This document shows positions 6,691 through 12,767 of a stretch of DNA of 64,000 nucleotides, piece after piece. Position 1 is the stretch's first letter, and the number at the start of each line of letters is the position of its first letter. The position numbers and the translations under genes were made by a program. The stretch spans positions 62,001 to 126,000 of the forward strand of contig JADZCM010000001.1 of assembly GCA_020851555.1 (NCBI GenBank), read 5' to 3'. The notes beneath the pieces were generated by a model. The model was not told the DNA's origin, searched no databases, and saw only the letters and a program-made list of their open reading frames with translations. Origin of the DNA: Bryobacterales bacterium (GTDB lineage Bacteria > Acidobacteriota > Terriglobia > Bryobacterales > Bryobacteraceae).

Positions 6691-8076
6691 TCATACACTG
6701 GTGGACGGGCACGCCGCCTCGCGGGTTGCGCCGATCGCGCGCTCGATGGCGCCGGCAATGCTCTGGCTGTGCTCCTCGACCAGGCTCCCATCGGCGCTCT
6801 CGATCATCACGCGGGCGAGCAGTTCGGTTCCCGAGTAGCGCACCAGGATGCGCCCCCGGTCCCCGATGGCGTCCTCTGCCGCCCGCATCGCGCGCGCGAC
6901 CTCCGGCAGATCCTCGAAGGGACGCCGTTCCCGGACGCGCACATTGACGAGCCTCTGCGGGTACCGTTCGAGATCCGAGGTCAGCTCATCCGGTCCGCGG
7001 CCCGCCGCCAGCATCACCTCCAGCACCCGCAGGGTAGTCAGAAGCCCGTCCCCGGTGGTTGCGTAGTTGTGGAAGATGACGTGGCCGGATTGCTCGCCTC
7101 CCAGCACCGCGCCGATCCGGCGCATTTCCTCCAGGACGTACTTGTCCCCGACCGGGGTGCGCGGCATGTGGATGCCGTCCTTTGCCAGAGCCCGCTCCAG
7201 CCCCAGGTTCGACATCACGGTCGAGACCACGGCGGGCTTGCCGCCGGGACCGCTCAATTCCCCGCGTTGGAGCAGGTGGCGCGCGGTCATGAGCAACACC
7301 GCGTCTCCGTCCACCACGGCGCCCCGCTTTGAAACGAAGATCGCCCGGTCCGCGTCGCCGTCGAGGGCCACGCCCAGATCCGCGCCAGCGTCCAGGACCG
7401 CCTGCCGGAGCGGCTCCACGTGCAGAGCGCCGCTGTTCAGGTTGATGTTGCGTCCGTCCGGCGAGCAGTGGATCGCGAGGGTATGCGCGCCAAGCCGTTC
7501 CAGTAGCTCGGGACCCAGCTTGCCGGCAGCGCCGTTGGCGCAATCGATCACGATGCGCAGCCGGTCCAAGCGGTGTGGAAACGTGGACGCGAGGAACTCC
7601 AGGTAGCGCCGGTCCAGACCGGAGTCCTCCGTCAATTCGACGGGCCCGGCTTCGACTCCACGGCGCAGGAGTTCGAAGATTCCAGCTTCCAGTTCGTGCT
7701 CCTGCCCGTCGGGGAGCTTGTAGCCGGAATGGCCGAAGATCTTGATCCCGTTGTCCTGAAACGGATTGTGCGACGCGGACACGATGACGCCGGCTACGAA
7801 GTCATCGGTCCGCGTCAGGTAGGCCACCCCCGGCGTGGTGATCACCCCCGCGAACCGCGTGCGCACGCCGGAAGCGGCGAGTCCGCCCGCCAGGCGCCGG
7901 GCGATCGCGGGCCCGGACTCCCGGGTGTCGATGCCCAGAATGACTTCCGGATCCGCCGCCAGCCGTCTTGCCAGCCGCCCGAGCGCCACGCCCACGGCGC
8001 AGATGGTCGGCGGGTCGAGAGGATACTCGCCGGCCACCCCGCGGAGGCCGTCCGTCCCGAACAACTCCCTAGCCAT
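6691..8076 (-). CDS. glmM: Phosphoglucosamine mutase
   Basis: 461 residues from the ATG at 8076 (MARELFGTDGLRG is the standard GlmM N-terminus; GGAGG lies 7 bases upstream). It converts glucosamine 6-phosphate to glucosamine 1-phosphate for UDP-GlcNAc and peptidoglycan. The phosphoserine loop VSASHNPFQDNG is near residue 100, the metal loop ALDGDADRAIF near residue 245, GGEQSGHVIF near residue 330, and RYSGTELLARVMIE near the C-terminus. It overlaps the 47-residue YbbR-like stub by 8 bases, and dacA is just beyond, the well-known cdaA-cdaR-glmM order in which c-di-AMP synthesis and GlmM activity are linked. Confidence 0.96.
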   Translation of the reverse strand: MARELFGTDGLRGVAGEYPLDPPTICAVGVALGRLARRLAADPEVILGIDTRESGPAIARRLAGGLAASGVRTRFAGVITTPGVAYLTRTDDFVAGVIVSASHNPFQDNGIKIFGHSGYKLPDGQEHELEAGIFELLRRGVEAGPVELTEDSGLDRRYLEFLASTFPHRLDRLRIVIDCANGAAGKLGPELLERLGAHTLAIHCSPDGRNINLNSGALHVEPLRQAVLDAGADLGVALDGDADRAIFVSKRGAVVDGDAVLLMTARHLLQRGELSGPGGKPAVVSTVMSNLGLERALAKDGIHMPRTPVGDKYVLEEMRRIGAVLGGEQSGHVIFHNYATTGDGLLTTLRVLEVMLAAGRGPDELTSDLERYPQRLVNVRVRERRPFEDLPEVARAMRAAEDAIGDRGRILVRYSGTELLARVMIESADGSLVEEHSQSIAGAIERAIGATREAACPSTSV

Positions 8077-8212
8077 GCAGGAACCTCCGCACGGCGCCTG
8101 GCAGCGTGGTGTGGAAGAACTCCGGCGACCCAACCACGATGAACCAAAACAGGACGGCCACCACCAGCGCCAGGAGCTTCCAGAAAAAATTCTCGAAAAT
8201 GAGCCGCTTCAT
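8069..8212 (-). CDS. 47-residue YbbR/CdaR-like membrane stub
   Basis: A short gene between dacA and glmM. Its ATG overlaps the dacA stop (ATGA at 8209-8212) and its TAG overlaps the glmM start by 8 bases, so it is translationally locked between them. The product begins MKRLIFENFFWKLLALVV and continues through one membrane helix (about residues 10-28) to VVGSPEFFH and a short basic tail. This is the start expected of YbbR-domain proteins such as CdaR (NFWLKLLSL...LW). Full CdaR proteins carry several extracytoplasmic YbbR domains and number hundreds of residues; here none remains. It may be an adapted minimal regulator of DacA or a relic kept for coupling. Confidence 0.75.
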   Translation of the reverse strand: MKRLIFENFFWKLLALVVAVLFWFIVVGSPEFFHTTLPGAVRRFLHG

Positions 8213-9069
8213 GCGCCACCGGCTCCTTGCCCCCGCGTCGCCGCGCTGCGCGCCGGCGTATCAGCCTGCTCCTCCAGCAGCAGGCTGCTGGTGGTTCGCC
8301 GCCCGAAATGCGTGGCCATGATTTCCGCCGCCCGCCTCAGCGTAACGTTCTGCTCGATTTCGCCGAAGGAGGCCACCGACAGGGCCCCGGTCTGCTCGCT
8401 GACCACGAGCGCCAGGCAGTCCGTCTCCTCCGTGATGCCGATGGCCGCCCGGTGCCGGGTTCCGAGCGAGCGGGGCAGCGTGGGGTTCAGGCTCAACGGC
8501 AGGAAGCAAGCCGCGGCCGCGATCTTGTCCCGCTGAATGATGGCAGCGCCGTCATGCAGTTCGCCGCCGGGCCGGAAGATGGCCAGCAGCAAATCCCGCG
8601 ACAGACGCGCGTCCAGCGGGACGCCGCTCTCGGTGAACGTCCGGAGGCCCGTGTCGCGCTCCAGCACGATTAACGCGCCGATGCTGAGCCGCCTCAGCCG
8701 GCGCAGCGCCAGGAGGATCTCGTCGGCGGACTCCAGACGTTGCAGCCGTCCGCCGAATCCGAGCCAGCGGCGCCTGCCCATACGGATGAGCGCGCGGCGG
8801 ATCTCGGACTGGAAGATGACGATCAGGGCCAGCGGCGTGTACGGCAGCAGCAGCGCCAGGAAGGAGCGCAGCAGGTGGAGTCCCGCCACCACGGACAGCA
8901 GGTACAAGCCCACCATCATCAAGACGCCGGCGAGCACCTGAGCGGCCCGGCGTCCGCGCACCAACATCACGAAGTTGTAGAGGAGGAAGGCGAACAGGAG
9001 GATGTCCACCACGGCGGCCGGCCCCAGCCGCTCCTGCCACGGCACGGTTTGTAAGAGAAGCAACGCCAT
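8209..9069 (-). CDS. dacA: Diadenylate cyclase, CdaA/DacA type (c-di-AMP synthase)
   Basis: A 286-residue membrane-bound DAC-domain protein that joins two ATP into cyclic di-AMP. Three hydrophobic helices fill about residues 18-85. The catalytic motifs are present: GELHDGAAII near residue 170 and GTRHRAAIG near residue 203, the DGA and RHR triads of the family. The C-terminal 35 residues are an Ala/Gly/Glu-rich tail without clear fold. It is the first gene of the dacA-stub-glmM operon. The start has no clear Shine-Dalgarno; a TATAGA hexamer ends 5 bases before the ATG, so the mRNA may be leaderless. Confidence 0.95.
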   Translation of the reverse strand: MALLLLQTVPWQERLGPAAVVDILLFAFLLYNFVMLVRGRRAAQVLAGVLMMVGLYLLSVVAGLHLLRSFLALLLPYTPLALIVIFQSEIRRALIRMGRRRWLGFGGRLQRLESADEILLALRRLRRLSIGALIVLERDTGLRTFTESGVPLDARLSRDLLLAIFRPGGELHDGAAIIQRDKIAAAACFLPLSLNPTLPRSLGTRHRAAIGITEETDCLALVVSEQTGALSVASFGEIEQNVTLRRAAEIMATHFGRRTTSSLLLEEQADTPARSAATRGQGAGGA

Positions 9070-9132: not shown

Positions 9133-11556
9133 CTACCGGACGGCTGGAACCAGGGCCTTCTTGAACTTGCACTCCGGGTTCACGCACTGCAAAACCGGAC
9201 CTGCCTTGAGCCGCTTCTCCACCAGGTACGGGCTCTGGCACTGCGGGCACGCCTCCGCCACCGGCCTGGCCCAGGCTACGAAATCGCAGTCCGGATAGCG
9301 GTTGCAGCCGTAAAAGGTCTTGCCCCGCTTGCTGCGCCGCTCGACGATCTCGCCCTGTTTACAGACAGGGCAGGCGACGCCGATGGTCTTGTGCTTGACA
9401 TACTTGCACTTGGGGTAGTTGCCGCAGGCCGTAAACTCCCCGAACCGCCCGTGCTTGACGACCAGGTTATGACCGCACTGCGGGCACTTCTCGTCGAGCG
9501 GCACGTCGGCCTTCTTCTCGGGAGAGCCGACGGGCTTGGTGGTCTTGCAGTCCGGGTAACCGGTGCAGGCAAAGAACTGGCCGAAGCGGCCCTTCTTCAG
9601 GACCATCGGGCGTCCGCAGTTGGGGCAGTACTCCTCGCCGCCCTGCTCGGCCAGGTCCGCATTGTCCACGTCGGGCAGATCCACCGTGAGTTCACGCGTG
9701 TTGGTGCAGTCCGGGTACCCGGAGCACGCGATGAAACTTCCGTGGCGGCCCCACTTGATGACCATGGGCTTGCCGCACTTGTCGCAGGTCAGGTCGGTGG
9801 GTTTCTCCATCCGCTTGATGTCGGTCATGTGGACTTCCGCGCGGCTGAGGTCCGCGGCGAATTTCCCGTAGAACTCCGCCAAGGCGGTCTGCCAGGATAA
9901 CTGTCCTTCTTCGATCTCGTCCAGCGCCTCCTCCATGCGCGCCGTATAGGTCACGTCGAAGATGTCGTCGAAGCTCTCGATGAGCAGGTCGGTGACGACC
10001 ATGCCCAGTTCGGTGGGAACGAACCGCCCGCCTTCTCTCTTGACATACTCCCGGTCCTGGATGGTGGAGAGGATGGAGGCATAGGTGGACGGGCGTCCAA
10101 TGCCGTCCGCCTCCAGTTGCTTGACCAGCGTGGCTTCGGTGAAGCGCGGCGGAGGCTCGGTGAAATGCTGCTCCGGAGTGAGTTTCTTGAACTTGAGCGT
10201 CTCGCCTTCGCTCACGGCGGGCAGACGGTGCTTCAGTTCCTCGTCCTCCTCGTCCTTCTGGTCCTTGCCTTCCTCGTAGACCGCCCGGAATCCGTCGAAC
10301 TTCAGCACGCTGCCGGTTTCGCGGAGCGTGTACAGGCGCCCGTCGCCGGAGCGGGCGTCTATGTCCAGCGTGGTCTGGAGAAACACGGCCGGCATCATCT
10401 GGGAGGCCACGAAGCGCATCCAGATCAGGCGGTAGAGCTTGAGCTCATCCTCGCCCAGGTGCTTCGCCACCGACTCGGGCGTGCGCAGCGCGGAGGTCGG
10501 CCGGATGGCTTCGTGCGCGTCCTGCGCGTCCTTCTTGCCCCGATAGAAGTTGGGGGACTCCGGGAGGTACTGGCTGCCGAAGCGCTCCGCAATCAGTTGG
10601 CGCGCTTCCGTCAGGGCTTCCGCCGACACCCGCACGGAGTCGGTCCGCATGTAGGTGATCAGACCGGCCGAGCCTTCCTTCCCGAGTTCGATTCCCTCGT
10701 AGAGCCTCTGCGCCAGCATCATGGTCCGCTTCACGCTGAAACGCAGCTTGCGGCTGGCCTCCTGCTGGAGCGTGGAGGTGATGAAGGGCGGGACCGGGTT
10801 GCGCTTCTTCTCCTTGGTCTCAACCGACTTCACCGTGTAGGCCGCTCCGGTGAGTGCGCTCGTCAGCGAGTCTGCGGTCTTCTGGTCGGGGATCTCGATC
10901 GTCTCGCCATCGCGCTTCATCAGCCGCGCCACGATCTCGGGCGGCTTGTGGGCGGCGAGGTGCGCGTCGATGGTCCAGTACTCGCGTTTCTGGAAGGCGC
11001 GGATCAGGCGCTCGCGCTCCACGATCAGGCGCAGCGCCACGGTCTGCACGCGGCCGGCGGACAGTCCCCGGCGTACCTTGTCCCAAAGCAGGGGGGAAAT
11101 CTTGTAGCCCACCAGGCGGTCCAGCACGCGCCGCGCCTGCTGTGCGTCCACCAGGTTCTGGTTCACCTGGGCGGGATGCTCGAAGGCCCGGCGGATCGCG
11201 TTCTGCGTGATCTCGTTGAACATCACGCGGAAGATGGGCGGCTTACCGTTCTTCTTGGCGCGAAGCTCCTCCGCCAGATGGGCGCAGATGGCTTCCCCTT
11301 CGCGATCGGGGTCGGCCGCGAGGTAGACCGCATCGGAGGCTTTGGCCGCCTGCCTCAGTTCCTGTATCAGCTTCTTCTTGCCTTCGATGACCTCGTAGGT
11401 GGGCTCGAAGCCGTTCTCAATATCAACCGCCAGATCTTTTTTGGGGAGATCCTTGACGTGGCCGAGCGAGGCCTTGACCGCAAACTGCCTGCCCAGGTAC
11501 TTGCCGATCGTTTTCGCCTTCGCGGGCGACTCGACGATCACGAGAGACTTGGTCAT
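9133..11556 (-). CDS. topA: DNA topoisomerase I (type IA)
   Basis: 807 residues from the ATG at 11556 (MTKSLVIVESPAKAKTIGKYLG is the typical start; an upstream in-frame codon would overlap dprA). It relaxes negative supercoils. The Toprim domain includes ADPDREGEAI near residue 110; the active-site tyrosine is in LITYMRTDSVRVS near residue 305; GRPSTYASI near residue 490. The C-terminal 240 residues hold five four-cysteine zinc ribbons, each CxxC...C(x)nC, the last one ending NPECKFKKA. Five ribbons is toward the high end of the range for bacterial TopA. It lies 35 bases downstream of dprA in the same direction. Confidence 0.97.
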   Translation of the reverse strand: MTKSLVIVESPAKAKTIGKYLGRQFAVKASLGHVKDLPKKDLAVDIENGFEPTYEVIEGKKKLIQELRQAAKASDAVYLAADPDREGEAICAHLAEELRAKKNGKPPIFRVMFNEITQNAIRRAFEHPAQVNQNLVDAQQARRVLDRLVGYKISPLLWDKVRRGLSAGRVQTVALRLIVERERLIRAFQKREYWTIDAHLAAHKPPEIVARLMKRDGETIEIPDQKTADSLTSALTGAAYTVKSVETKEKKRNPVPPFITSTLQQEASRKLRFSVKRTMMLAQRLYEGIELGKEGSAGLITYMRTDSVRVSAEALTEARQLIAERFGSQYLPESPNFYRGKKDAQDAHEAIRPTSALRTPESVAKHLGEDELKLYRLIWMRFVASQMMPAVFLQTTLDIDARSGDGRLYTLRETGSVLKFDGFRAVYEEGKDQKDEEDEELKHRLPAVSEGETLKFKKLTPEQHFTEPPPRFTEATLVKQLEADGIGRPSTYASILSTIQDREYVKREGGRFVPTELGMVVTDLLIESFDDIFDVTYTARMEEALDEIEEGQLSWQTALAEFYGKFAADLSRAEVHMTDIKRMEKPTDLTCDKCGKPMVIKWGRHGSFIACSGYPDCTNTRELTVDLPDVDNADLAEQGGEEYCPNCGRPMVLKKGRFGQFFACTGYPDCKTTKPVGSPEKKADVPLDEKCPQCGHNLVVKHGRFGEFTACGNYPKCKYVKHKTIGVACPVCKQGEIVERRSKRGKTFYGCNRYPDCDFVAWARPVAEACPQCQSPYLVEKRLKAGPVLQCVNPECKFKKALVPAVR

Positions 11557-11591
11557 ATCAGCCAGACTGGCGGCGGACCGCGGCGGGCCGC

Positions 11592-12767
11592 TCACCACAC
11601 TTTCACGAAATTTCTTCCAGGCAACTGCCGTACCAGGCCCTGCATTTCCAGCTCAAAAAGCCCGGCGATCAACTCCGAGGGGGAGCTGTCTTCGAAATGC
11701 TCCACCAGCGTGTCAATGTGCGTGGGAGCATCCACCTTCAAGTATTCCAGAAGGCGGCGTCCCAGCGGGAGCGGGGAACCGAAGGGCAGCGGCGGCTGCG
11801 CCTCTTCCGGCGCGGCTTCCTCCGCGTCTCCGCCAAGCCCCATGCGTTTTCTGGCAATCTCCACCAGCCGCCGCCGGTCCTCCGGCTGGAGTTCGCTGGT
11901 CACGTCATTCCAGTCCTGCACCAGTTTCGCTCCCTGCCGGATCAATAAGTTAGGGCCCCAGCTCATCTTCGACGTGATATTGCCCGGGACGGCGAACACC
12001 TCCCGCCCCTGGTCCATGGCCAGCTTGGCCGTAATCGCGGACCCGCTGTACTCGGCTCCTTCAACCACCACCACTCCCGCGCTCATGCCGCTGATGATCC
12101 GGTTTCGGATCGGAAAATTCTGCGGATAGGCCGGCGCCCCCATGGGAAACTCCGACAGAAGTAGTCCCACGGACGACAGTTGTTCAGCCAGCTTCCGGTT
12201 TTCCGAAGGATACACCACATCCACCCCGCAGCCAAGCACCGCGACCGTGTCGCCCTCCGCCGCGAGCGCGCCCCGATGCGATGCCGTGTCTATGCCTCTT
12301 GCCATTCCACTCACAATCGTCAGTCCGGCCCGGGCCAGGTCGGAGGCCATCCGTTCCGCCACGGCATTGCCATAGGGCGTGGCCCGGCGGGTTCCGACCA
12401 TGGCCAGCATCAGCGACCCGAGCAACTCCACTCTCCCCCTGGCAAACAGCAGCACCGGAGGATCGAAGATCTCGCGCAGCCGGGGCGGGTAGCGCGGGTC
12501 GGACAGCGCCACCAACTCCACCCCCGCCTCCAGCGCCCTATCCTGCTGGCTCGCGGCCTCCTCGAACGCGCACCCGCTGGCTACGCAGCGCGCCACTCCG
12601 GGATTCAGCCCCGCCGCCACCAACTCCGAGGGCGAGGCCCGGAATACCGCCTCCGGGGTCCGGAACCGCTCGATCAACTGCCCTGCCTTCCTGCTGCCGA
12701 GGCCCGGAACCAGCCTGAGGGCGAGCCAGTGAAGCGTCTCTTCCCGGCTCAAAGTCGAATGATGCAT
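11592..12767 (-). CDS. dprA: DNA-processing protein DprA
   Basis: A 391-residue Rossmann-like protein that binds incoming single-stranded DNA and loads RecA during natural transformation. N-terminal helix-hairpin-helix/SAM-like part (LRLVPGLGSRKAGQLIERF), central DprA domain with AMVGTRRATPYG, VSGMARGIDTASHRGAL, AVLGCGVDVVYPSENR, FPIRNRIISGMS and VFAVPGNI, then a C-terminal winged-helix (DTLVEHFEDSSPSELIAGLFELEMQG) as in the DML1-like extension of many DprA proteins. The gene leads a dprA-topA pair, a common order. No other competence gene is visible here. Confidence 0.96.
   Translation of the reverse strand: MHHSTLSREETLHWLALRLVPGLGSRKAGQLIERFRTPEAVFRASPSELVAAGLNPGVARCVASGCAFEEAASQQDRALEAGVELVALSDPRYPPRLREIFDPPVLLFARGRVELLGSLMLAMVGTRRATPYGNAVAERMASDLARAGLTIVSGMARGIDTASHRGALAAEGDTVAVLGCGVDVVYPSENRKLAEQLSSVGLLLSEFPMGAPAYPQNFPIRNRIISGMSAGVVVVEGAEYSGSAITAKLAMDQGREVFAVPGNITSKMSWGPNLLIRQGAKLVQDWNDVTSELQPEDRRRLVEIARKRMGLGGDAEEAAPEEAQPPLPFGSPLPLGRRLLEYLKVDAPTHIDTLVEHFEDSSPSELIAGLFELEMQGLVRQLPGRNFVKVW

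Follow-up and report, generated by a model that had tools for sequence, protein, structure and literature searches.

A CdaR protein reduced to its membrane helix between dacA and glmM in a Bryobacterales genome

A 47-codon open reading frame (ORF) lying between dacA and glmM in a Bryobacterales genome is well supported as a CdaR reduced to its N-terminal membrane helix. The product is probably a microprotein that still binds DacA and no longer senses the outside of the cell, this being the best reading because three species of another genus have parallel helix-only forms whose codons are under selection. We infer its translation, its binding to DacA, its effect on c-di-AMP and the carry-over from those three species to the copy described here. 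The window, meaning the whole stretch of DNA analysed, spans 64,000 nucleotides of a draft assembly (G000; 3.69 Mb, 57 contigs, 92.69% complete), and its relevant features are as follows.

6691–8076, minus strand: glmM, phosphoglucosamine mutase, 461 aa from the MARELFG start (start read from the sequence); TIGR01455 above cut-off
8069–8076, minus strand: ATGGCTAG, 8-nt overlap between the cdaR end and the glmM start, from the sequence
8069–8212, minus strand: helix-only CdaR, 47 aa; ORF call, and match to a profile made without the window row (E 7.4e-12)
8084–8088, minus strand: GGAGG, likely ribosome site of glmM, within the small ORF, by eye
8132–8188, minus strand: codons of the predicted membrane helix, residues 9–27, with conserved W, K, A, L, A and W; hydropathy and column conservation
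8209–8212, minus strand: ATGA, 4-nt overlap between the dacA stop and the cdaR start, from the sequence
8209–9069, minus strand: dacA (cdaA), membrane diadenylate cyclase, 286 aa; TIGR00159 above cut-off, Pfam DAC and CdaA_N
8223–8228, minus strand: AAGGAG, likely ribosome site of the small ORF, within dacA, by eye

The upstream gene encodes a CdaA/DacA protein with both CdaA_N and DAC domains, scoring 210.3 bits against TIGR00159 (cut-off 188.8), and its translation contains the DGA and RHR motifs. The downstream product scores 490.6 bits against TIGR01455 (cut-off 447.55). On the other side of dacA lies a gene at 9133–11598, presumably topoisomerase I-like, which flanks dacA in the window genome only among the loci tested, a sign of operon rearrangement.

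The small ORF lies between dacA and glmM on the same strand, starts with ATG and encodes the protein MKRLIFENFFWKLLALVVAVLFWFIVVGSPEFFHTTLPGAVRRFLHG, whose hydropathy peaks at 2.62 in the 19-residue window beginning at residue 9. Its position and both overlaps are as the original prediction had placed them, and the proposed resemblance of its N-terminus to the first helix of YbbR proteins was confirmed with a profile of the CdaR N-termini of 43 relatives, which, with the window row left out, matched this ORF alone among the 1317 window frames of at least 20 aa (E 7.4e-12) and indicates a helix homologous to that of CdaR, with the conserved face kept. When the stub itself was used as query it matched CdaR N-termini of other genomes (best E 1.5e-6), with matches at E ≤ 1 in 35 of 61 genomes, chance matches among them. 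The predicted absence of a YbbR domain also held, the small ORF having no Pfam (PF07949 included) or NCBIfam match at E ≤ 1. The whole gap between the dacA stop and the glmM start is only 133 nt, so no YbbR remnant is hidden after the ORF. The final 15 residues of the stub may stem from the beginning of YbbR domain 1 or be a new acquisition.

Longer CdaR proteins are the rule at the corresponding loci of relatives. A scan of named genomes by DacA gave 80 loci, in 76 of which a CdaR frame follows dacA (median 223 aa), overlapping the dacA stop by 4 nt in 54. Around the lysine position, these 76 frames have N at −4 in 65, W at −1 in 50, A at +7 in 69 and W at +11 in 73. The four remaining loci comprise one in which the dacA stop is off the contig end, two that end early or have no long frame near the contig end (L006, L037), and one with a dacA–glmM gap of 62 nt and no CdaR (L058). 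The nearest relative, HOT.MAX.089 (L002; same contig number and coordinates as G202), has a DacA 72% identical to the window's and a CdaR of 221 aa with YbbR matches. Since relatives, the nearest included, carry a longer CdaR, the window ORF is a shortened CdaR. Acidobacterial-type dacA–cdaR loci occur in two metagenome records with Acidimicrobiia in their titles (L074, L081), whose DacA has 60% and 48% identity, respectively, to that of the window; mislabelling or mixed bins may be the cause.

We also read the dacA–glmM gap in 27 genomes, namely the window genome, six of its relatives, and 20 of the 23 genomes of genus g25, DacA being unmatched in the remaining three. The gap was readable in 25, with full CdaR in 15, a broken frame in 1, a one-YbbR-sized CdaR in 4, a helix-only CdaR in 4 and no CdaR in 1. 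The helix-only genomes are G000 (47 aa) and three species of g25, a genus other than the window's (G154, 38 aa; G024 and G091, 39 aa each), and these three have no YbbR domain genome-wide at E ≤ 0.1. One-YbbR-sized CdaR occurs in G178, G121, G102 and G067 (about 140 aa; PF07949 match confirmed in G178, G121 and G067). Forms of one-YbbR size are present also in G629 (nearest to G026 by DacA) and in G289, from another family of the phylum. CdaR is absent from the gap of G104, which retains dacA and glmM and has no YbbR domain elsewhere at E ≤ 0.1; this appears to be the genome of L058, with the same gap and agreeing DacA positions. In G160 (L143) the CdaR frame breaks after the first YbbR-sized part. 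We rejected G160 as a one-YbbR form and counted it as broken, as its gap is nearly full length, the break being either a sequencing error or early decay.

Helix-only CdaR is rare, judging from the few short frames listed in wider searches, although frames open upstream can hide short forms. In the family, a helix-only profile matched 170 of 237 genomes, and 11 of the 150 listed frames were below 200 codons. The helix-only genomes ranked as the top four, as expected for a profile built from them, and the other short frames (G121, G102, G178, G629, G160, G146, G082) were one-YbbR, frame-broken or at contig ends. The order search (200 genomes) gave 8 frames below 200 codons and the phylum search (395 genomes) 5 short frames, in each case among the 150 matches listed; those of the phylum were from G000, G024, G289, G301 and G372, with the frames of G301 and G372 near contig starts. 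Such a screen by open-frame length is not a complete census, as short forms can be missed where the frame is open upstream (in G067 the open frame is 415 codons long for a protein of ~139 aa). All eight listed members of genus g58 (G087, G093, G109, G135, G162, G167, G195, G200) were without a DacA match at 1e-8, and this genus may lack a CdaA-type cyclase or have a strongly divergent one.

The reduction in the window genome arose apart from that in G024, G091 and G154 on the DacA tree (97 rows; a short search with many deep forks open; G160 carried with the label full; loci L002, L058, L006, L037, L067, L066, L071, L026, L062 and L038 left out). G000 groups with G202 (SH-aLRT 86) and G028 (94), both with full CdaR, and G024, G091 and G154 form one clade (100) within g25, such that the helix-only label needs two changes, both forced by starred branches. 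The one-YbbR genomes of g25 likewise form a single clade.

The stub codons of G024, G091 and G154 are under purifying selection. DacA is 78–82% identical between these species, and over codons 2–36 of the stubs the three pairs gave pS of 0.83, 0.87 and 0.56 against pN of 0.28, 0.33 and 0.19 (Fisher one-sided p 5.2e-7, 1.8e-6 and 3.7e-4, the pairs not being independent). As the stubs of G024 and G091 have a common C-terminal end (ADN-x-V, then stop), the deletion is most simply older than the split of this pair, and the pair's selection signal therefore accrued as a stub; G154 could have undergone a separate, recent deletion. The window genus is represented by one genome, so the pN/pS evidence covers the stubs of the other genus alone.

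Among the 43 relatives, the conserved helix positions (N7, K11, S/A14, L15, A18 and W22 in profile numbering) lie on one side of the helix, the moment of conservation being greatest at 100 degrees (permutation p 0.0027). All four stubs retain this face: the window stub keeps all six positions, with A at 14, and the helix-only clade of g25 has N, K, C14, L and W, with A or S at position 18. That clade has lost the outer E-P pair of positions 28–29 and everything after it; the window stub retains the proline. The original prediction had considered that relatives might have a full-length YbbR protein of which the window ORF would be a degraded copy. CdaR is indeed full length in all five readable relatives of the window lineage, but degradation does not follow, because the helix-only copies of three species are under purifying selection and keep the conserved face.

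In the mechanism that we propose, CdaR would have lost both of its extracytoplasmic YbbR domains and become a single-pass membrane microprotein, made from its own overlapping start beside dacA and inserted with the N-terminus inside. The face N7-K11-A14-L15-A18-W22 would pack against the membrane helices of DacA, the retained face thus being the DacA-binding one, with action within the membrane and no sensing outside. The structural or tuning half of CdaR, acting for example on the oligomer state, stability or membrane assembly of DacA, would have been kept, and the half that would read an extracellular signal lost.

Alternatively, the window ORF might be what a recent deletion left behind, merely passing ribosomes from dacA to glmM with its amino acids irrelevant. 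Both overlaps and the location of the glmM ribosome site within the small ORF fit such a role, as do the full-length proteins of the nearest relatives; with one genome in the window genus, a recent deletion would look alike. Complete loss of CdaR is moreover tolerated in G104, which lost the helix and keeps dacA and glmM, so that at least one lineage does without the helix, and this counts against a functional microprotein as well. However, the amino acids are selected in the three-species clade without any overlap with glmM, the stub stops being separated from the glmM ATG by 3 to 14 nt, as judged by eye. Nor does the window helix show clear loosening in comparison with full-length relatives, its identities over 27 positions being 13 to G202, 15 to G028, 14 to G026, 11 to G158 and 9 to G181 (the last two somewhat low), as against 15 of 27 between G202 and G028. 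We therefore regard a mere leftover as rather unlikely. The original prediction had offered a minimal helix regulating DacA and a remnant for translational coupling side by side; selection and the face kept in the other genus favour the functional helix, and for the window copy a function is suggested by analogy with that genus.

The window genome also encodes a second cyclase outside the window.

Contig 12 of G000, 107457–108599, minus strand (L171): second diadenylate cyclase, CdaA-type, 381 aa, in which the DAC domain is followed by a CdaR-like helix and then by one YbbR domain; DAC and YbbR above cut-off

A whole-genome search found no other YbbR domain in the window genome. In the order (200 genomes), 169 genomes have a DacA match and 19 have two, G000 included. 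Each of the other 18 gives a match that covers most of the fused protein, at 40–51% identity in 17 and at 32% in G032; the match of G141 ends at residue 315 of 381. The fused cyclase was found in none of the six tested near relatives of the window genome, and proteins resembling it occur patchily in the family. The gene just upstream of dacA–cdaR in G028, G158 and G026, presumably DUF362-like, has its homologue in the window genome just upstream of the fused cyclase.

These observations could mean that YbbR sensing moved to the fused cyclase, leaving the stub-side dacA as a non-sensing housekeeping copy, whether the stub works or not: the fused protein combines DAC with the sole YbbR domain of the genome, adjoins a homologue of the gene found upstream of dacA–cdaR in three relatives, and is present in 0 of 6 near relatives tested. 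Against this, each of the helix-only genomes G024, G091 and G154 has just one DAC match, and 0 of the 18 other fused-cyclase genomes are helix-only among the matches listed; the link between fused cyclase and stub is therefore not general, and we consider such a transfer improbable. That a YbbR part of ~530 bp was simply dropped in this one draft assembly of 57 contigs is hardly credible, given that the junction leaves an intact frame, a clean glmM start and a ribosome site, and that the same form occurs in three assemblies of another genus.

CdaR is reported to bind the membrane region of CdaA (in Firmicutes, PMC6368335 and PMC8573169; also PMC8316131), and a review places the contact between the membrane domains of both proteins (PMC10243994). 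Both activation and inhibition of CdaA by CdaR have been reported, and the mode of regulation has been described as unclear (PMC8573169). The review cited above gives 3–4 YbbR domains for CdaR of lactic acid bacteria and mentions CdaA–CdaR fusions in some streptococci, with a possible contact there between the CdaR helix and the first helix of CdaA (PMC10243994). The window stub resembles CdaR in the gene order dacA-cdaR-glmM, in the overlap with dacA and in a single N-terminal helix with the same conserved positions, and differs in lacking a YbbR domain and in its length of 47 aa against a median of 223 aa in relatives. The streptococcal fusions and the fused cyclase of G000, whose helix keeps the K, the A at +7 and the W at +11, likewise show cyclase, CdaR-like helix and YbbR belonging together, but they retain YbbR with the helix in the same chain, whereas the window helix is separate and YbbR is gone. 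The single-YbbR CdaR proteins of G178, G121, G102, G067, G629 and G289 share the loss from the outer end and the retained helix, yet they keep one YbbR-sized part. In the titles and abstract openings of open-licence literature we found no description of a helix-only CdaR, which may exist elsewhere, and almost nothing on c-di-AMP, YbbR or diadenylate cyclase in Acidobacteria.

We tentatively suggest, at slightly less than even chances, that helix-only CdaR constitutes a functional class in which the outer sensor was removed more than once and a DacA-binding helix sets or stabilises the active cyclase. If true, it would be in the membrane that CdaR plays its conserved role, with the YbbR domains as an optional module for input. 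A natural helix-only CdaR takes the protein's two halves apart, offering six helix positions to mutate and a way to test what the helix does by itself. At the level of the family, control of c-di-AMP has been rewired repeatedly within a single acidobacterial family, with CdaR carrying two YbbR domains, a single one or none, with CdaR missing altogether, or with YbbR joined to a second cyclase.
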